From NCBI RefSeq assembly GCF_035083965.1, contig NC_089732.1, positions 5,409,383 through 5,473,382 of the forward strand: a DNA stretch of 64,000 nt, in the 5' to 3' direction. The notes below the pieces were generated by a model that saw nothing but the letters and a program-made list of their open reading frames with translations, had not been told where the DNA came from and ran no database searches. Source of the stretch: Branchiostoma lanceolatum (taxonomy: Eukaryota; Chordata; Leptocardii; Amphioxiformes; Branchiostomatidae). This document shows, one piece after another, positions 34,140-57,380 of this stretch. Made by a program: the position numbers and the translations under genes. Within the stretch, counting starts at the first letter, position 1. Each line of letters starts with the position of its first letter.

Positions 34140-37072
<2,933 letters not shown>

Positions 37073-37526
37073 GTTGCCGTAGACTTGAACGACCCGGTCA
37101 AAATGCCAGAAAACGCAAAACTCGTCCTATTTTTCCTGTAATGTTTCTAAACAACGACCTCTCAATGGAACATAGAGAAGACGTATTTATCCTGTAGCAC
37201 CGCTCCCATGGAGACCGGGCATGCGCACAAAGCTCTGACGTAACATATTTTTGGCCGTGTGATTGGTGAAAAATCTTTTCTTTTTTCCTGACGATCAGAT
37301 TTTGAACCAATCAATGAGAACATATTTACCTCAAAGCACCAATCATATTTCTATATTTTGAGGATTCCACACTTTGACGCTCGGGACACATCAGGTGGGC
37401 AAGACAAAGTCGCGTGGGCCAAGAATATTTGTGAAAGCACCAAAACTTGTTTTTTAGGGCCACGTTACGCCCGAAAACGTAACGAATTTAGCTCCGAAAG
37501 GTTTATAGAAGGAGCAGAGGCACACC
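37073..37526. promoter_or_regulatory. Bidirectional promoter region of CFAP91 and SNRPA1
   Basis: Only 454 bp separate the two ATGs. It contains CCAAT boxes in both orientations (attgg near 37261, ccaat near 37307 and 37340) and no clear TATA box, as is common for divergent housekeeping promoters. Transcription start sites are not visible. Confidence 0.6.
37202..37215 (-). promoter_or_regulatory. Candidate RFX X-box upstream of CFAP91
   Basis: On the minus strand GTCTCCATGGGAGC matches 13 of 14 positions of the X-box consensus GYYNCCATRGNAAC. It lies about 130 bp before the CFAP91 start codon, a usual place for RFX sites in cilia genes. The match was judged by eye only. Confidence 0.45.
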
Positions 37527-43184: not shown

Positions 43185-46100
43185 TTAAGTCGTTTCTTGT
43201 GATTCGACACTAGTAGGTAGAAGCAGTTCAGCGGCATCCACCCTGTCTATGTCTAGCAAAGCCCTGTGGATCTGGTCTGAGTTAGCTGTTGGTGTGTTCT
43301 TATGATACATTTCCAGAACCATCTCTGTCGGGTTGTGTTTGCTCTCGATGTAGCAGATGTCCTGGAAGCACAGCCCCAGTTCGTCAGCCAGTGCCTTCCA
43401 GTTGTTCCCAAAGATGGGTGCGGGAGGGTCCAGGAGGATGGACAGGTGTTGAAGCGTCTTGGGGTCCACGAGGCCACTGCCACCTGTGAGGGAGCAACAA
43501 CTTCTATCTTTAGCCTGAGAAAACATGCTGTTGCATCAAATAGATATACACCATTCTATTTATATAATATGTACTATACAGGCAACTCTGTTTTCGATAG
43601 GACAAAAATCAAGCTTGTATAAAATAAGAAAAAGCTACTTACTTTTCTGTTCAGACGTTTTACTGCTTTCTTCTGCACTCGTCGATAGCGCAACATCCCA
43701 ACTTGACTGCTGTAAGAATGAACGGTTCTTTTGTAGGTTATTCTATATCTTACTGGACGTATATACGTTGGGAAAGGAATTGAAAGAAAATATGCTAATT
43801 GCCAACGGTTAACAAATACCTGCATCAAACTTCACACACCACACTTCTGGCTCAATGTTAAATTACTAAGATTAAAACCACTGAGAGTACTCACATTTTC
43901 TCCGAGGTCCACCTTAAAGGCATTGCCTCGGCACATCAGAGTTGTTTTCTCCCCGGGTCGTGGGAGCTCTTCGTCATGTCCTGCTACCCTCAGGATGTGT
44001 GGAGGAGGACGGTCTTTCTCTCCTTTGCGTTTGTTGAGTGATCTGCATGCTGGGCATGGAAGCCCCACTGTGTAGTTCAGGTAAGGGAAGTCTCTGTCTC
44101 GGATCTGCTGCAAGTCCTTGTGAAGTCTGGACAGTAGAGAATGAGGACCTCTGTTTGGAGCACATTTGACGGTGACCTGGATCATGTTCTGCTCCACGGA
44201 TGGACACACGATCTCCACGTTGTAGTAGAAATCATGTCCCTGATAGAATCTGCCCACATTTCTGTAGACATCTCGGTCGGCACCACGACCAAGGTCATGG
44301 GTCTTCTGTGATATTGACAAACATCGGGCAAGCAGGCGGAGGAAGATGGCCTCTGGATGGAACTTGTAGAATTTGAAGTAGAGAACCGTGTCCGATTCTG
44401 CGGTGTCCCAGAATGCTGAACCACCATGGTCAGTCTTCTCTTGCTCGGTGCCTTTCTTGGGCATGATCTCTTCATTAGTCTCGAGAAGCAAGGGTACGAG
44501 ATACTGCTCTTGATCGATGGGGCACAGAATGTCATATCTCTCGAACAGGGCGATGGCGGAAAGGAAATTCTCTGCTGTCAGGAATTTCCATACTCTGCGC
44601 AAAGAACTGACGTGAACGATTCCAAGCTCATGGTCATCACAATCAAGCTCCACAAGCTCTACGACAAGCTGAACCAACGCTGTCAGATCCAAGACTACAA
44701 CATCACCCATGACCTTAAGCTCTCCGATTTCATCGTAAAACTTCAGCATCTGCTCAAAATCTTCTCCCTCATCTTTTGCCTCTACAACACCTTCCTGTCT
44801 CAGCTTGTCGAACAAAGTACGTTTGTCCAGTAGACACGTGGCTTTGGAACTGCATTTGTACTTGTTGACGAAGTCGCTGACTTTGAGCCACTTGATAGGA
44901 AAGTGCCTCTTGGATTGGAACGACGAAGCGGTGACTTCCATGATGGTTTTTCGCAGGAGACGCGCCTGGGGATCTTGACGGAGTGGTAGAGAGTTCTCCA
45001 CAGAGAATAGAATGTCTTTGTTGTTGTCTGGTTTCCCCACAATCAACTGAGCGAAGTTTTCATTACTAAGCAATGCCTTGCTCACCTTGCTCGATAGAAA
45101 CTTTCTTCTCTCTATCGGCAAACTGTTTGTATGTGTTCCGACAATGAAAATGTGAGGATTGGGGTTTTGTACGTGGACTATCACAGACTGGACCCAGGAG
45201 CAAATACGCCTGATGTAGTCTGGCTCCTGTTCTAATCGTTCCATGTTGAAGACAATGAGGTGAATGGAGAGATTCGATAAGAACAGATGGTGTGTGCAAT
45301 GATAGACAGTATCTCCAGCAAAATCAATTAGGGTAAACCTAAGAGGCAAATCCTTGACTTGTTTTAAGGATTTGATGGTCCTGCCAACTAGAACTGCCGG
45401 ATAGCTTCCCGTTTCTTGATTTGCCCAATACACCCTTTGTCTTTCTTTATGTACAAGAATAAGCATAGCAACCATGTTCGGCACCATGTAATAAGAATCT
45501 TTCCATGTGGATGGTAGAACCATCCGCCAGCCAAAGAACCACTGACCCATGGCAATACCGTAGACAAAACCTATTGGGCCCATGAAGATCTTTAACTGAA
45601 GACCACGAATTTGGGAATTGCATAGTTTTTCAATGATATGATAGCACGCAGTGTCTGTTGCACCAAATGCAAAACCACCTATAAAACTGAGTATGTAATC
45701 TATATGTTGGCTGACGTCGATCACAACATTCGCGATACCACAAAATACCGGTAGCAGCACTACTAATGTCAGAGCTAAGTATCTGTTATATGACATGACG
45801 CCCAATAGACCGGCGGCAGCGAAAAGACATGTTGGCCCATCTATATTCCAGTGTGTAAACCACTGGTATAGATGTGAAGGTATGTCGTCGTAAAGTAGTT
45901 GTGTAGGCGGGCACATGAGGCAGAAGGCCATGGCTATGCCAGGTTTTACCCCCATCGGCCATGGAATTACAAGGACAAACGAAATGATCACTGTGGCCAT
46001 TGCAAACATAAGATACTGAAGACAGGGGTACCCTACTGACTGCTCGTTCCCGAATAAGAAGAAGATATTGAGAAAGCCATTTCTTCTTACATACCAATCG

Positions 46101-46676
46101 ACGATGGTGTGTATTATACTTATATAGATTCCATCATTCTTTCTTTGGCCGAACAATTTCACAATCCCTGTTATCAGTAAAAATGAGACACCAAATCCCA
46201 GTTGAAAACCGACTGATCCCGGAACTATGGTGATCATCGCAACGGTTAGCGCATAGTTCAACAACGCAGTCACGACTGGAAGATTCACTATGGACCTAGC
46301 CTGTTTAAAAATTTCTTGGGCTACATACAGGGCGCGGCCGGTATTATATCTACTGTAAGGTCCTTCTTTTACTGTTTGCCAAGCTCCATTGACCTCCGTT
46401 ACATCTTTTTGTACCAAATCAAACTCAAGTCCTTTAGTCGCTTCTTCAGCGGGATTAAAAGACTTATCGAGCAGGTGTTTTTCCAGACTTGTCTTGCCAG
46501 CTCTGGCATCTCCGAGGAACGAAACGGTGCTGTGTCGGGCTGGTAGGCTTGCATTAGGGGCATCTTGTTGAAAAACGTCCCTCACAACAGTGGAGCGTGC
46601 TAGACTATGAGTCGGGAGGAAGTTCAAGTTGAGTTCACTGTTGACTGTCTGCCACGGTTGATTTGCTATCAGCGAA
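43185..46676 (-). CDS. Membrane Roc-COR GTPase with Death domain, copy A (5' end uncertain)
   Basis: Exons: 43895-46676, 43643-43709, 43185-43483, plus an uncertain first exon (see 48789-48868). Order of parts: Roc P-loop GDARAGKT (46490-46513) and switch-like EATKGLEFDLV; then a hydrophobic insert of about 280 residues (45449-46282), probably eight or nine membrane spans; then G3 LIDFAGD (DFAG 45314-45325), a G4-like FIVGTHTN, and a COR region (FPIKWLKVSDFVNKYK, LFDKLRQEGVVE, VVVLDLTALVQLVVELV). A 22-codon Ser-rich linker exon and a Death domain (LSILLDPPAPIFGNNWKALA, SKHNPTEMVLEMY) resembling those of UNC5 and NF-kB follow. In Roco proteins Roc binds GTP and COR dimerises, while Death domains recruit partners. 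A role as a membrane immune or death-signalling receptor is inference. No ATG lies in frame ahead of the P-loop within the big exon. Confidence 0.82.
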
Positions 46677-47577
46677 CTTCTTTTGGTTGAGCTGCATGGC
46701 GTAAGAAGAACAAAATGTTTGGTGGTGTGAAGTGTTCATAAGAAGAATAAGTAATCGGAAGTATGTACCAAGGCCAACTTCATCTTAATTTTATGGATAA
46801 CATCCGCTCGGCTCCACGGAAATCCTGAACTTGCCGACTCATATTGCCGCAAAAAGCCAGCATTGTGCCGGCTTGTCGTAAAACTCGTTATGTACTATTA
46901 CAAAATACGACGTCAGCATCAAAGTGAAAACTGGGGGCGTAATTGTGGATTGGTATGCCATCGACGTTGGCGTTGTTTGCTTGATACAATGTTTTCTGTT
47001 GTTCAATTCGCAATACCAGCTATGTAGTCCTGTGGTTTAGCAGCATTTATTCGCTGATTTCCCCCCCCCCCTCGCATTAGTTTTAGGATATCCAGAAGAT
47101 ATCATCCATAAAACTAAGATGGTGTGGCCTAAGGAACAAATTCATCAAAGGTTTCTCGAGTTATGCTCTTGACATACATACAGACCCACCCTACAGCTGG
47201 CCCAACCGAAAACATAATCTTCTCGGCGAAGATAACTACAAACGAACCCAGGGATCCCAAACTTCCTCCAGGATAGCGTCAAGCATGTCTCGTGATGGTT
47301 GAAATCTTCATTTTTTCGGATCCGTGTGTGTCCCAAAATGTGATAACTTTTCTTGGCTTTTCTTTGCTTGGCTTGACTAGGGAAATCTATATACATTTTC
47401 ATTTGTTATGTTCCTATCCACGTGCACAAGCCAGAAACAAAACACTGATGACAGTAAGCATGACGTAGTATTGATCTTAAATGATTATCAAAAGAAAGCT
47501 GCGCTCTTCCGTGTTGTTTTTTTAGGATAGAAATAGAGACGTGTGTACGAGTCGTTCACATTGTCACGTTACCAGTG

Positions 47578-47628: not shown

Positions 47629-48788
47629 TTTTGATCACGTAACTATGTGAACTAGCTTTCGACAAAGAACCGTTAACATAAACCTTTCCCGTTTCGTATT
47701 TTGAGTCCTCTCATCATGAGACACACGTATTCAGAACTTTTCATCATTAATTATGCAAATTGGGTTATGATTTGAGGAATTAGCATATCGCTGTGTTTAT
47801 TATTACCTAAGGTATCTATATGCCAAAAACCATCATGATGACACTTCATCATCTCTTTCCTGTATATCATATTCTCCTCCAAAGTCTCCATCAAAAACAG
47901 CCCCTGCAGTTCCACAAAAGGTGCACGGGTATCCAAATATATACCACTTTTTTTCTTTCCGAGACAAAGAGCTATCTGCAACCTAAAAGACTGACCACAA
48001 GATATCCAACAGAGAGCGGCTATATGGCCATACTTGAACTTCGTTTTGCTGACACCAACTCGTCACCAGATATCGTAAATATCATTCGCAACGTCTCATG
48101 TTTCTGCAATAGTTGCCACGACTGAGACCGGTGTACTGTAAATCCTACATGACAATCTGCGCATCACTGTAAAAGACACCACATGTGCATTCCGGTATTA
48201 TATATAATGCAATACAATCGACACGGTTACAACGCACGTACCCAAACTCTTGTGTAAGGTTTAGTTTCAATCTGTCGGTCAATCAATAAATAGTTTCTAC
48301 CAACGATTGGCAACCATTCGGTGTAGTGAAGTACATGCGATTCTCCGCATTATGGCACTGTACGTAGCATTTGAATTAATTATACCATCACCCTGACTTG
48401 AATTATCACATGAACTTGGGGAGGGGTTGAAACACGGAAGCAAGAGAATATTTCAAACTTCGGCAGAGGGAAAGGTAGATAACGACAGAGAATATTTGAT
48501 ACCAACGCTAACAGTTTATCAATCTCTCGTTGTCTTTCTTGTGACGTGACGTACGTGATCGTATACTCACTTATCTCCTGTGTCGTGCGTCCCTGGTGCC
48601 TTTACACCTACTGATTTCCTTACAGCAGCCCGATCTTGCTAAAAGATCACACGTCACCCGCAAACCTCGTGACTTCTAGTTGACAAGTACGGTGCGTCAT
48701 ATCAGGAAGTGTTTCTCATTGTCGTTGAAAAGCATGATGGTAGGCAGGTATCGAAACCTGTCGAGAAGTTTTGAGGAAATCTACTTAC

Positions 48789-49156: not shown

Positions 49157-52100
49157 AGAAAACTAAGTGGTAGTATAAAAGTACATGTATAATAATGTAC
49201 ATGCATATACTTGTAACGCTTCACTGAGCATTGTCACCATTCTTCACGCCATACTATTGTTTATACTTTCAAAGATTATAAAGCAATGAGATGTTTGATA
49301 CCACACTTTCATAATGCAAACTGTCATGTTTATTTAAATATGTTTATCCAATATATAGAGGCTGTTATTCAATAACTTGTTAACATGGGAACATAGTCCT
49401 ACCTGCAAACAAGTGAAGAAATGTTACTTATCACCTATCCACGATTACGTAAGCGGAAATAACTCTACTCTCAACCCGGTGTTTACACAAATGATCTCCC
49501 ACTCCAACACGTTTAAGCTGATATGATTTACTTATTACAGAATGTGAATATAGAATAAATCCCACTCCCAGCTAGGCTACAATCTCTAGCTCTGGATTTA
49601 CAATCTGTTCATTAAGTCGTTTCTTGTGATTTCACACTAGTAGGTTGAAGCAGTTCAGCGGCATCCAGCCTGTCTATGTCTAGCAAAGCCCTGTGGATTT
49701 GGTCATTGTTAGCTGTTGGTGTATTCTTATGATACATTTCTAGAACCATCTCTGTCGGGTTGTGCTTGCTCTCGATGTAGCAGATGTCCTGGAAGCACAG
49801 CCCCAGTTCGTCAGCCAGCGCCCTCCAGTTGTTCCCAAAGATGGGTGCGGGAGGGTCCAGGAGGATGGAGAGGTGTTGAAGCGTCTTGGGGTCCACGAGG
49901 CCACTGCCACCTGTGAGGGAGCAACAACTTCTATCTTTAGCCTGAGAAAACATGCTGTTGCATCAAATAGATATACACCATTCTATTTATATAATATGTA
50001 CTATACAGGCAACTCTGTTTTCGATAGGACAAAAATCAAGCTTGTATAAAATAAGAAAAAGCTACTTACTTTTCTGTTCAGACGTTTTAGTACTGCTTTC
50101 TTCTGCACTCGTCGATAGCGCAACATCCCAACTTGACTGCTGTAAGAATGAACGGTTCTTTTGTAGGTTATTCTATATCTTACTGGACGTATATACGTTG
50201 GGAAAGGAATTGAAAGAAAATATGCTAATTGCCAACGGTAAACAAATACCTGCATCATACTTCACACACCAAACTTCTGGCTCAATGTTAAATTACTTAA
50301 ATTAAAACCACTGAGTACTCACATTTTCTCCGAGGTCCACCTCAAAAGCTTTGCCTCGGCACATCAGAGTTGTTTTCTCCCCGGGTCGTGGGAGCTCTTC
50401 GTCGTGTCTTGCTACCCTCAGGATGTGTGGAGGAGGACGGTCTTTTTCTCCTTCGTGTTTGTTAAGTGATCTGCATGCTGGGCATGGAAGCCCCACTGTG
50501 TAGTTCAGGTAAGGGAAGTCCCTGTCTCGGATCTGCTGCAAGTCCTTGTGAAGTCTGGACAGTAGAGAATGAGGACCTCTGTTTGGAGCACATTTGACGG
50601 TGACCTGGATCATGTTCTGCTCCACGGATAGACACACGAGCTCCACTTTGTAGTAGAATTCATGTCCCTGGTAGAATCTGCCCACATTTCTGTAGACATC
50701 TCGGTCAGCACCACGACCAAGGTCATGGGTCTCCTGTGATATTGACAAACATCGGGCAAGCAGGCGGAGGAAGATAGCCTCGGGATGGAACTTGTAGAAT
50801 TTGAAGTAGAGAACCGTGTCCGATTCTGCGGTGTCCCAGAATGCTGAAGAACCGTGGTCTGTTTCTTCTTGCTTGCCTTTCTTAGCTGTGGTCTCGTCAC
50901 TTGTCTCGAGAAGCAAGGGCACGAGGAACTGCTCTTGTGAGATCGGGCACAGAATGTCATATCTCCTAAACAGTGCGATGGTGGAAAGGAAATTCTCTGC
51001 TGTCAGGAATTTCCATACTCTGCGCAAAGAACTGACGTGAACGATTCCAAGCTCATGGTCATCACAAACAAGCTCCACAAGCTCTACAACAAGCTGAACC
51101 AAAGCTTTCATATTCAAGACTACAACATCGCCCATGACCTTAAGCTCTCCGATTTCATCGTAAAACTTCAGCATCTGCTCAAACCCTTCTCCCTCGTCTT
51201 CTGTCTCAACAATACCTTTCTGTCTCAGCTTGTCGAACAAGGTACGTTTGTCCAGTAGACACGTGTCTGTAGAACTGGATTTGCACTTGTTGATGAAGTC
51301 ACTGAATTTCAGCCACTTGATAGGAACGTGTCTCTTGGACTGGAAGGACGAAGCAGCCACTTCCATGATTGTTTTTCGCAAGAGACGCGCCTGTGGATCT
51401 TGACGGAGTGGTAGAGAGTTCTCCACACAGAATAGAATGTCTTTGTTGTTGCCTGGTTTCCCCACAATAGACTGAGCAAACTTTTCATTACTAAGCAATA
51501 CCTTGTTCACCTTGCTCGATAGAAACTTTCTTCTCTCAACCTGTAAAGTGTGTGTGTGCGTTCCAACAATGAAGATGTGAGGATTGGGGTTTTGTACGTG
51601 GACGATTACAGACTGGACCCAGGAGCAAATACGCCTGATATAGTCTGGCTCTTGTTCCAATCGTTCCATGTTGAAGACAATGAGATGAATTGAGAGATTC
51701 GATAAAAACAGATGGTGTGTGCAGTGATAGACAGTATCTCCAGCAAAGTCAACCAGTGTAAACTTGAGAGGTAAATCCTTGACTTGTTTAAAGGCTTTGA
51801 TGCTACTACTAACAAGTCGCACCGGATAGCTTCCCATTTCTTGATTTGCACAATGCACCCTTTGTCTTTCAACTTGTACTATAAGGCATATGGTGATTAT
51901 GTTAGGCAATATGTAATACGTATCTTTCCATGTAGATGGTAGAACCATCTGCCAACCAAATAAACAACCACATCCAAGTCCGTAAATAAAACCTATTGGA
52001 CCCATAAAAATTCGTAATTGAAAACAACGTCGATAGGAACTGCACAGATTTTGTACAATATGATAGGATACGTCACCTGCTGCGCCACTTACAATACCAC

Positions 52101-53110
52101 TAATCAAATGCAGCATGCAATCTATCCTGTCATGAACGTCCATCGCGTTTATGATACCCCATGCAGTCGGTAGCAGAAAGATTAACATCGAAGTGAAGTA
52201 TCCAGTAGATGACGCTACGACGCCCAAAAGAGCGGCCACACCGAAAATATATGATAGCCCATCTATAGTTAACTGACTATTGGAAGCGAAGTCGTCGAAA
52301 TGTAGCTGAGTAGGTGACCACATAAGACAAAAGGCCAGGGCTATGCCAGGTCGTCCTCCCAACGGCCATGGCACTATCAAGACGAACGAAACTACACCTG
52401 AGGCAATTACAAACAGTACGTATTGAAGATAAGTAGCGTTCCCAGTTGACTGCTCATTGCTTACAAGGGAAAATATGCTGAGTAAGCCATTCCGTACATG
52501 CCAGTCCATAATCGTGTATAATACAACTATATCTATACCATCTACCCTTGCAACATGGTAGGTTTGGCCGAACAGCTTGAAAATCCCAATTGATAGTAGA
52601 ACCGGGACGCCAAACCCCAGCTGAAAACCGACTGACCCTGAGACCATGACAATCACTGCAATGCTTAAACTATAACTCAACAATGCAATCGCGGCTGGTC
52701 TTGGGAAAAGTGGGGGGTTCAACATCGTTTCAGCTTCTTTCAAAATCTGGAGGGCTACATACTGGGCGCGGCCGGCGTTATACCCACTATAAGGCCCTTC
52801 ATGTACTGTTTGCCAACCTTCATTGACCTCCGTTACATCTGTCTGTACCAAATCAAACTCAAGTCCTTTAGTCGCTTCTTCAGCCGGATTAAAAGACTTA
52901 TCGAGCAGGTGCTTTTCCAGGCTTGTCTTACCGGCTCTGGCATCTCCGAGGAACGAAACGGTGCTGTGTGGGGCTGGTAGACTGCCCTTAGGGGCATCTT
53001 GTTGAAAGACGTCCCTCGCAACAGCGGAGCCTGCCAGGTTAACAGGTAAGTAGAAGCCCAGGTTGAGTTCACTGTTTACAGTCTGCCACGTTTGACTGGC
53101 GAGAATAGAC
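49157..53110 (-). repeat. Tandem duplication unit B (Roc-COR-Death copy B)
   Basis: Matches unit A from about 42592. Across the two introns between the big exon and the Death exon I count only about six differences in some 360 bases against unit A. Confidence 0.85.
49329..49334 (-). promoter_or_regulatory. Candidate poly(A) signal of Roc-COR-Death copy B
   Basis: TTTATT (AATAAA on the minus strand) lies about 280 bases after the stop, at the same relative place as in copy A. Confidence 0.45.
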
Positions 53111-54150
53111 CTCCTTCACACAGGACAAGAGAAACGGAAATTGTCAGTGATATACATGTACTAATAAGGTGTACATTAGATGCATTCACTTCTTATCATT
53201 TCAAAACTATTTTATTTTGTAAAGAGACATTCCGATTTTGACCACTGTTCGAACCAGCCACCTGTTTGACGTTAGTAGCATGCGTCGTGGCAAAATCTTC
53301 ACGGCTCACCGCCACCGGCGAAATGTGTGTCGCTTTGATATTGAGCACTTACAGGAAGTAGGAACACAGTCTGATAATTTCAAGTTCATCGCCCAATTAT
53401 GAGTAGGGCCAAAATTATCAATATGAATACACAACGTGGTCGCTAGGGCAGCCATGTTTCAGCTAAAAGAAACAAGATAAGCTCAAGCTCGGTCATACAA
53501 TAGCAACAGTGCAAACGTGGCAATATTGATTACACGACACAGCCAAACATAGAGAACTGTTGTTCAGCCAATTTTGTCAACTCCTACTATTTTTCATAAC
53601 GGGGGAGTCTAGTGGGGACTTCTTTGGTAGTTACATACTACTGAACATCGTTAAAGTGCTTAAAAACAAGAACATTTACTGAATGTTGCTGTGGCTACGC
53701 TAAGACCCGTACCGCCACAAAACCACGGGCTGCTACCGAAAACATAACCTTTGTGGTGAAGGCAACAAAGGAGTATGACTTTCAGACGTGAACGGCGTCC
53801 CAACCGTCCCGCAAAACAAACTGGCGTTGCCAGCTCTCAAATCTCCCGGACAAAATGCGTGTCGCAATTTTGTTGACGCCTAGCCGCCCCAAGCAGGATG
53901 AGACCATCATTTGACGGTCGGACGCCCCTCTGGCTGAAACAATATGAATCTGTGTCATCATAACTGTAATGTACAGTCATGTTGGCCGATTCGTGACAAG
54001 ATTTACAGGTCTCCTTCCTCTCGCGATACATGATCTCTTTATTTTCAGTGAATTTATGGTGCTATATTAAATGAATACTCACTTGTCTCCTGTCTCCAGT
54101 GTCTCGCTTGTCTTTTCAACTTGACCAGCAACTCCTACTTGGGCAGCCAT
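49612..54150 (-). CDS. Membrane Roc-COR GTPase with Death domain, copy B (complete)
   Basis: Exons, 5' to 3': 54083-54150, 50323-53110, 50070-50139, 49612-49910; 3225 nt, 1074 aa, with all phases matching. ATG gives MAAQVGVAGQVEKTSE. P-loop GDARAGKT is at residues about 78-85 (52924-52947), followed by ATKGLEFDLV. The hydrophobic insert spans about residues 162-436 (51871-52695) with spans such as YVLFVIASGVVSFVLIV and YIFGVAALLGVVA. G3 LVDFAGD is at 477-480 (51739-51750). The G4 position reads FIVGTHTHTL, with no Asp. COR follows (VPIKWLKFSDFINK to LVQLVVELVELV). Linker and UNC5-like Death domain lie at about 976-1074. The soluble parts are nearly identical to copy A and the membrane insert is much less so. 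The function is unknown. A cytosolic GTPase/Death scaffold anchored in a membrane is inferred. Non-Roco alternatives are unlikely given the P-loop, DxxG and COR order. Confidence 0.87.
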
Positions 54151-55187: not shown

Positions 55188-56099
55188 TTATTGACAGCAT
55201 GTTGCTGTTACGGGTCTCTTATTTAGTAATGATACCATGTATGGTATCGGGCTATTTCTATAGCGTGCTGTTCTGGTTTTAATAGTGCTCAACTGTTGAC
55301 TATTGCGCGTATTCCTGCCGCTGACTTCTTGTCGGGTTGGCGGGAGCCAGTCGCAGAAGGTGGTAGAGTGAAGTAGCTTTCTGGCGAAAGATTCACAGAG
55401 GTAGTCGCGTCTTTGCTGCAACGTCGTGAGACCCAGTGTGTGGCAAGCATCCGAGTAGTTTGTATAGTGGGTCCCTAGGATAGTTCTGACTGCTCTACGT
55501 TGTATCCTCTCCAGTTGAAATCTCTGGGACAGCGTTATACCAGGTTGCCAGACCGGTACTGCGTATTCACAGGTCGGACGAATAAAACTCGTATAAATGG
55601 TGACAAGGTCCTCTCTGGTTACTCCAAATGACTTAAGTCTCCTCAGGAAGAAAAGTCTCTGGTTTCCTTTCTTGACCATGTGGTCGACCTGGGTAGTCCA
55701 TTTTAGGTCATCCTGTATGTGAAGACCCAGAAGTTTTGCCACTTTGACTTGAACTAGGGGGTAGTTGTCGATTTTCAGCGAGGGTAACTGTGGTACGGAT
55801 CTTGAGAAGCAGAAAAACATTACTTTGCATTTTTTGGGGTGCAGGCTCATATTCTGTTCGGCTGACCACTTGCTAAGGTCGTCGAGATCCTGTTGTAAGA
55901 GGGGAGGATCCCCAACCTTTCGGCACTCGACTAAGTTTAGGTCGTCGACGAATTTCCATCTCCTTGAGGTTGCGTGTTCGGCAGCGCTATTGATCAGGGC
56001 TAGGAAGACAATCGGCCCAAGTACGGTCCCCTGTGCATTGTAGTACGTGTTGAGTGGCCAGTTGTCCTTGTAGGATTGTGATTTTGTGAGACGTCTCAA
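55188..56099 (-). mobile_element. 5'-truncated non-LTR retrotransposon (CR1/Jockey-like LINE)
   Basis: A 303-codon open frame encodes the second half of a reverse transcriptase. It has motif 4 (QGTVLGPIVFLALIN), the catalytic box as FVDDLNL (usual F/YADD, here Val for Ala), the DLSKWSAEQNMSLHPKKCKV segment, KLLGLHIQDDLKW, and the thumb/C-terminal YTSFIRPTCEYAVPVWQ and RIQRRAVRTILG motifs typical of the CR1/L2/Jockey group. The endonuclease and the first RT motifs are absent, as expected for 5' truncation. An unbroken frame suggests a young insertion. No target duplication could be placed. Confidence 0.85.
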
Positions 56100-57380
56100 G
56101 CCAGATGATGGACAAGGACAAGAAAAAAAATTACCATTCTATGAAATGTTAAACCAAGGACATTAACGTTATATATACTGTCCTTGGTTAAATGTAACGT
56201 CCACGGTCTGAATTCCTTTGTCATTTTGTACACCATACGGAGAAGAATACACTTCTTGTGTTCATCTGGACACCAACGTAACGCCCAAGGTCAAGGTCAT
56301 TTCTAGGGAATTCGGAGCATAGACTGAACTATGATAATGCATGAGGGAGGGGAAGGTAGTGACAGGGAGAAGCTCAAAACGTAGTCCGAGTCCGAACTCC
56401 ATCGCACCTTTTACTTTTAGCAAAGTAAAATTTTCTTCTCTCCTTGTTCTCTCTGAACACATACAATTTGGTAACCGCATAACAAACCTCAAGATTTTCC
56501 ATAGATGATAAAAAATGATCCAATTGTTTTGTAAATATTTAAAAAGAAAAGAGTCCAAAAATAGTTTTGAATATGCTATGGACTCTTACGAAATGCATGG
56601 CCGTGTGTCGGAACATTTACCGATCGCGATACTGCGAGAGGGATTTCGGATTTATAACAGTTTTCAGACATAGGTGAAGCTTGGGGAATGATTATTCGGT
56701 ATCTTCAATGGGGTTAAATCTTCAAGGACATTATTGAATAATATCATTGCGGCTGCATCATTGCGTATCTTCAAGTTCAAGGGGGTTTAAAATCATTTCT
56801 TGAAGTTCATATACTGAGGTAATAGACTTGGGTTTCCGGGCTTCATGTGCGAACTGAATTTTATATCGCTGCGTCAGCTAGACACAGAAAATGCAAACAG
56901 GCAAACACAACACGCTCATGAATTCTTACTCCACGTGGACCTGAATGTGACGTGGCACTGATTTGCATCCATCCCCGCAAAGCATCAACGATTCCCCGCT
57001 GTCTAATCGTCCCCACATGGAGACATAGTAGACTGAACCACAAAACGATGTTTTATCTTTTGTTATTTGTCATATTTGAGCTAATAAAAACACTCAGCAC
57101 ACAAATACTACTCAATTGTTTGAAATTAAGTAGAGTTGTTAGATTTTAAGGGTTAGAGACGTAAATCGGCGTTCAATAACTAGACATTTAAAAAACAAGT
57201 CGTGTACAAACACCCCTATTGTAAACATTAGTGGTTTGTCCTGGGGTCTGTTCCCCGTCTGCGGTTTTGGAAACCGGACACCACAGACTGATTTGCATGC
57301 AGGGTAAGCTGACACAATCTGACTTCCCTCTCTCCAGAACAGACAGCCATCTTTTCTCGCTCCACCAAACGTCCCTAAAA
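56100..57380. other. Spacer between LINE and FKBP gene
   Basis: Contains an inverted repeat at about 56148-56192 (ttaaaccaaggaca and tgtccttggttaa) and the presumed promoter and 5' UTR of the FKBP gene. No coding exon recognised. The open frame at 56262-56558 has no family features. Confidence 0.5.

Follow-up and report, generated by a model that had tools for sequence, protein, structure and literature searches.

Whether a Roc GTPase domain can carry a multi-pass membrane segment inside its own fold is the question raised by a 64-kb stretch of DNA from the amphioxus Branchiostoma lanceolatum (NCBI RefSeq assembly GCF_035083965.1, contig NC_089732.1, positions 5,409,383 to 5,473,382 of the forward strand), hereafter the window. 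Two gene copies, A and B, lie there in tandem, both on the minus strand, and in each a single open exon encodes the P-loop half of Roc, a hydrophobic block of ~290 residues, the DxxG half of Roc and the COR domain, with a death domain encoded by later exons. A first-pass annotation, made from the sequence of the window, had described such a multi-pass block within the Roc domain of copy A in one open exon; arrangement and location both stand, in a frame of 967 amino acids, with the strand corrected to minus. The protein is a variant of the Roco architecture in which Roc is split by a predicted membrane insert, homologous between amphioxus and ambulacrarians. That it is a Roco GTPase whose predicted bundle of ~10 spans is likely a sensor moving both switches directly is a proposal that we regard as about evenly balanced.

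The hydrophobic block and its relatives

The frame of copy A runs from stop to stop over 43832-46735 (minus strand), and within it the membrane insert occupies 45410..46285 (minus strand), between switch I and DxxG, as delimited by hydropathy, AlphaFold2 modelling and profile homology to ambulacrarian inserts. The frame list of the whole window holds no plus-strand frame of 200 amino acids or more, and the one plus-strand frame that was translated contains many stops. Mean Kyte-Doolittle hydropathy over 282 block residues is 0.78, against -0.36 in the rest of the protein, a value reached in none of 10000 residue shuffles; given the base composition of these 282 codons, the probability that they would be free of stops by chance is ~1e-7, and the remaining two frames of the minus strand over the block hold 26 and 4 stops. 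The shuffle test and the open-frame probability together rule out a chance hydrophobic frame. Between copies A and B the ratio of non-synonymous to synonymous divergence (dN/dS) in the block is 0.40, at a synonymous divergence (dS) of 0.79, so that the block is conserved at the protein level. Gaps between the two copies also appear in frame; their alignment was made from the proteins, and they were not used as evidence.

Protein searches, which scored the 7993 and 7994 candidates with most shared words, recovered at least 38 distinct proteins (P0003 to P0040), including the window copies as P0003 and P0006. In 23 of these 38, the P-loop is separated from the DxxG motif behind it by 339-429 residues: 12 are from Branchiostoma (one being copy B), nine from the sea stars Patiria, Acanthaster and Asterias, and one each from the brittle star Amphiura filiformis and the acorn worm Ptychodera flava. 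Four other Roc proteins have distances of 51, 58, 58 and 161 residues, and the remaining 11 are partial or rearranged models. Sea urchin, tunicate and vertebrate members were absent from the matches listed, no search having been aimed at these groups.

As the inserts share only 12-20% identity between phyla, profile comparison was used to assess their homology. A profile of 14 amphioxus inserts matched one of 11 ambulacrarian inserts at 97.4% probability (expectation value (E) 1.4e-11, 227 columns), with 0.5% for a reversed control and 0.2-0.4% for five column-shuffled controls. The match is less secure when the lineages are taken singly, at 86.6% for sea stars, 78.2% for the acorn worm and 76.6% for the brittle star. 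On the pooled comparison the amphioxus and ambulacrarian inserts are homologous, and this homology across phyla makes one origin of the insertion the simplest reading. Given homologous inserts in both groups and assuming vertical descent, the insert would have been kept since before the split between chordates and ambulacrarians. A search for a stand-alone source of the insert scored 7999 candidates and found none at E 0.001.

In favour of the block being a retained intron or an artefact of gene modelling, a few database models could be cited: P0020, P0023 and P0024 are missing it or some of the Roc on its flanks, and P0021, P0022 and P0035 have no P-loop or no DxxG. Yet the block is open in both window copies and is retained by those 23 of the 38 models, which represent several lineages, and a simple consensus scan of its edges found neither a GTRAG donor nor a pyrimidine-rich acceptor beside it in either copy. 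On these grounds, together with the dN/dS ratio and homology over 227 columns across phyla, the intron or artefact was rejected as very improbable.

The divided Roc domain

Against 4wnr_A, a solved archaeal Roco, the N-terminal half of the sea star Roc matches residues 30-89 and its C-terminal half residues 89-123, and the halves of copy A match 37-77 and 86-139. Since these matches nearly abut, the ends of the insert correspond to neighbours between switch I and DxxG in an ordinary Roc, and on this alignment that is where the insertion point is; we take it to be the turn of the beta2-beta3 (interswitch) hairpin of the Ras fold. The Pfam Roc profile matches as two separate segments, positions 2-44 ahead of the block and 44-118 behind it (the second in P0003). 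The N-terminal half of copy A (46286..46549, minus strand; Pfam Roc profile 2-44 and model) runs from beta1 through the P-loop GDARAGKT (G1, residue 75; 46490..46513, minus strand, by motif) and the switch I threonine (TKGLEFD) up to the insert. The C-terminal half (44912..45409, minus strand; Pfam Ras 459-537, LRRK2 matches and the motif table) holds beta3, DFAGD (G3), VGTHTNSL (G4 without its aspartate) and the G5-like VENS, so that G1, the switch I threonine, G3 and a G5-like motif are all kept in the protein. LIDFAGD stands at residue 469 (45331-45311), and the distance from G1 to G3 is 394-396 residues.

The Roc family PF08477 scores 48.0 and 49.6 bits in the window copies (cut-off 27). 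COR-A and COR-B follow directly after Roc (43895..44911, minus strand, in copy A) and were assigned from Pfam and from model matches to LRRK1, LRRK2 and prokaryotic Roco; the model also matches Roc-COR structures. COR-B reaches 27.5 bits in copy B (cut-off 27) and 25.2 in copy A. COR-A stays below its cut-off of 35.3 in amphioxus (17.5 and 15.2 bits, so that neither part passes in copy A) and exceeds it in two of the three echinoderm proteins scanned, both sea star (36.3 and 42.1), with 30.4 in P0029. The expectation that the flanks would resemble Roc and COR is thus borne out, plainly for Roc (48 bits against 27) and in amphioxus with COR scores near or below the cut-offs. The death domain (PF00531) scores 40.4 bits in P0006 (cut-off 22.6) and is also found in P0003; among the echinoderm proteins scanned, from sea stars and a brittle star, none matched it at E 0.1, yet it is present in P0032 and P0035.

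The full-length AlphaFold2 model aligns with Arl1 (8ezj_C) at 164 of 165 residues over model residues 50..588, at 2.5 Å. As model residues 448-588 number 141, alignment counts place at least 23 of the Arl1-aligned residues ahead of beta3, and it is this excess that points to one G fold spanning both Roc halves. The joined G fold that the first-pass annotation had looked for is therefore present in this middling model, in which both halves are predicted to close into a single Ras-like fold.

The insert itself shows ~10 hydropathy maxima averaged over four lineages, and two AlphaFold2 models give it nine long helices and a broken tenth, beyond the six spans looked for. In copy A the predicted spans, all on the minus strand and each followed here by its model helix, are span 1 at 46199..46276 (136-161), the short spans 2 at 46154..46195 (163-176) and 3 at 46088..46132 (184-198), span 4 at 45968..46027 (219-238), the broken span 5 at 45893..45946 (246-255 and 259-263), span 6 at 45788..45838 (282-298), span 7 at 45728..45778 (302-318), span 8 at 45623..45715 (323-353), span 9 at 45536..45613 (357-382) and span 10 at 45410..45505 (393-424), which continues into the C-terminal half of Roc. 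Span 5 lies within G-x-x-x-G-[IVM]-A-x-A-F, common to most members, with A, F and P invariant in 18 sequences; glycine is also invariant in these 18 in span 9 (G389 and G402 in P0001 numbering). The segment is thus predicted to be multi-pass, as first described, with ~10 spans in place of the eight or nine then counted; nine, being odd, would not leave the two Roc halves on one membrane face. The insert is predicted to be a ~10-span membrane bundle with both Roc halves on the cytosolic face.

Several features of the models and sequences weigh against so tidy a picture. The full-length model has a mean predicted local distance difference test score (pLDDT) of 66 and a predicted template modelling score (pTM) of 0.50; its residues 80-137 and 422-445 fall below pLDDT 50, a regular beta2 strand is not formed and the hairpin is poorly modelled. 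Taken one at a time, 15 proteins have only 3 to 8 sites in the insert above a strict hydropathy threshold. The absolute count of lysine and arginine in internal loops is unbiased in sea stars (5.4 v 5.7) and in the acorn worm (4 v 4), and the absolute positive-inside count, which derives mostly from the terminal segments, was rated weak.

The GTPase motifs bear on what the bundle is for. It may be merely a permanent membrane anchor, with Roc a weak or nucleotide-free scaffold holding death domains at the membrane, and the aspartate of G4 (THxD) speaks for this: in a table of 30 rows, 19 of them amphioxus (P0003 repeating copy A), it is absent from every amphioxus row in which G4 can be seen, 17 in all, which read THxN/H/S/K (~45119-45145, minus strand, in copy A), and from eight of nine sea star rows, which have Ala, Glu or Thr. 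Guanine binding or base specificity is accordingly uncertain in amphioxus. The aspartate of DFAGD, moreover, sits where four non-inserted Roc matches have glutamine, and the insert evolves fast. Set against this are the G1 lysine and threonine, the switch I threonine and the aspartate and glycine of DxxG, which are invariant across 18 and across 8 aligned members, and the three rows that keep the G4 aspartate (P0029, P0033 and P0036, which between them represent the acorn worm, the brittle star and Asterias rubens). A simple anchor would presumably not need ~10 spans inside a switch, and we consider this alternative unlikely, if less so than the others weighed here.

A candidate sensor and its possible output

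If the bundle is instead a sensor acting on the switches, it would serve as the input, altered by a ligand, a lipid or the state of the membrane. Such a change would shift the interswitch hairpin, acting as a lever, and the shifted hairpin could alter the nucleotide state or switch geometry; the COR dimers would be rearranged in turn as a relay, and their rearrangement might expose or cluster the C-terminal death domain, recruiting death or NF-kappaB type output. We know of no comparable inserted block in Arf proteins. Their interswitch toggle, in which the interswitch strands relay information to the nucleotide site, is described in PMC3012027. No fold match for the bundle was found. Against Pfam the insert gave nothing above chance, among PDB sequences it had no relative, and fold searches returned non-significant matches only, which are not proof of a new fold. 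Phage records held no match to P0036, and NCBIfam and PADLOC, run on P0006, P0025 and P0036 only, gave just under-threshold or P-loop matches.

Many of the weak, non-significant resemblances of the insert are to transporters. They favour a channel or transporter gated by Roc, with information running from the GTPase to the membrane, as do the ~10 predicted spans, the conserved glycines and proline, and a G-x-R-T-G-x-A stretch in ambulacrarians; this reversal of direction we judge improbable.

How the two copies have diverged suggests a further possibility for a bundle that acts as the sensor. By the Nei-Gojobori method, dS between copies A and B is 0.40 ahead of the insert, 0.79 within it and 0.22 behind it (dN/dS 0.34, 0.40 and 0.27), a synonymous divergence 3.6x as high in the insert as in the part comprising the C-terminal half of Roc and COR. 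The insert of copy A is 72.1% identical to that of B. floridae P0005 and 52.9% to that of copy B; its COR is 79.1% identical to that of the former and 89.1% to that of the latter. Fourteen amphioxus sequences went into the trees; P0003 and P0006 were omitted because they duplicate A and B, and P0004, P0016 and P0019-P0024 because their models are partial, rearranged or shorter. The insert tree joins A with P0005 (100/100) and P0007 with P0012 and P0008 (100/100), two groups that pair across amphioxus species, and the Roc-COR tree unites A, B and P0007, all from B. lanceolatum (100/96), with only three of its 11 inner forks well supported. From the contrast in dS and the conflicting trees, the Roc-COR output half looks gene-converted between some paralogues, with inserts kept separate. 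Two placements fit this less well: the insert tree pairs copy B with P0009, both from B. lanceolatum (100/99), and P0009, the fourth copy of that species, falls outside the clade of A, B and P0007 in the Roc-COR tree. A varied bundle with an apparently homogenised Roc-COR fits a receptor with variable input and constant output. We tentatively suggest, with less confidence than we give to the sensor itself, a deuterostome receptor class with a polytopic sensor in the interswitch hairpin, sensing and switching as one unit, a varied input, and a Roc-COR-death output that gene conversion keeps uniform.

The protein shares Roc and COR with the Roco proteins, and its model suggests the arrangement of LRRK2, LRRK1 and the Chlorobium and Methanosarcina Roco; it differs in that Roc, usually continuous, is interrupted by the predicted bundle, and neither continuity nor the G4 motif was taken as defining. 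No leucine-rich repeat or kinase family matched at E 0.1 in P0003, P0006, P0025, P0027 or P0029. A C-terminal death domain is also found in the DAPK1 group (Roc-COR with death domain), but no kinase or ankyrin family was matched in the five proteins scanned, and the DAPK1-like amphioxus P0038/P0039 have 58 residues from P-loop to DxxG against 399 in copy B. The closest precedent in kind, a loose one, is the KAP P-loop NTPases, which have membrane spans inside the NTPase domain, four in Kidins220/ARMS (PMC4632323) and two in Tmn (PMC11846954), against ~10 here; they are another class of NTPase, and no KAP family matched copies A or B in Pfam at E 1.

Among the titles and abstract openings listed by searches of the open literature, none described a Roc with inserted membrane spans. 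The accessible text of a Roco review (PMC6337361) places LRRK2 partly in the cytosol and partly at membranes and does not contain 'transmembrane'; that of a study of brown algal Roco reports non-conserved insertions in Roc (PMC11378527), and that of a study of amphioxus death-domain genes (PMC2575513) contains neither 'GTPase' nor 'Roc domain'. Should the proposal hold, a membrane domain would connect directly to a GTPase switch and, through it, probably to a death domain, and nature would provide a protein whose Roc switching should be coupled to the state of the membrane. In LRRK2, the best-studied Roco, the coupling of membrane contact to the GTPase cycle is still debated. The proteins would form a candidate receptor family in amphioxus and ambulacrarians, animals known to have large sets of innate immune genes.

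Gene structure and surroundings

Copy B (P0006; 99.7% identity to the window copy over 934 residues) is the intact exemplar. Its exon 1, with the start codon, lies at 54082..54150 (minus strand; tblastn of P0006, 100% over 23 residues), its large exon 2 at 50314..53115 (minus strand; open frame and tblastn), with the P-loop at 52924-52947, the insert at ~51850-52731 and DFAGD at 51736-51750, and its last exons, with the death domain, at 49615..50139 (minus strand; tblastn of P0006, and PF00531 in P0006).

In copy A, the exemplar first chosen, the frame holds up and the expected start codon does not. Large exon 2, from the N-terminal half of Roc to COR, spans 43895..46679 (minus strand; open frame, tblastn of P0003 and P0006), with a GTGAGT donor immediately past 43895 and an acceptor read from the sequence at 46680/46681 or 46677/46678. 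The last exons, at 43185..43709 (minus strand; tblastn of P0003, PF00531 in P0003, and sequence), carry the death domain at ~43185-43484. A stretch resembling exon 1 (48570..48629, minus strand) aligns with the first exon of P0007 (63% across 19 residues, E 3e-5 against a 3-kb target), with the same GTGAGT donor at its end; it has no in-frame ATG, the expected position reading CGG, with CAA GAT upstream and a TAG stop further upstream. Because of this codon, and because the first methionine of the large exon (46237) falls within predicted span 1, copy A may be start-lost in this assembly, or may start elsewhere, with its frame intact.

The best database match of copy A, P0003 of B. lanceolatum (100% identity across 82% of the queried region), begins at that methionine, within the membrane insert, and so has no P-loop. 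In P0004 (B. floridae C3YCK0) DFAGD precedes the P-loop, and two tandem genes have probably been merged by gene prediction. Elsewhere in the window, a large exon at 35507-37126 (minus strand) encodes a CFAP91 domain (PF14738, 211.5 bits). A reverse-transcriptase-like fragment lies at 55188-56138 (minus strand), ~1 kb upstream of exon 1 of copy B, with RVT_1 at 28.8 bits, just below its cut-off of 29.6, and PF09004 at 27.9 bits, above its own.
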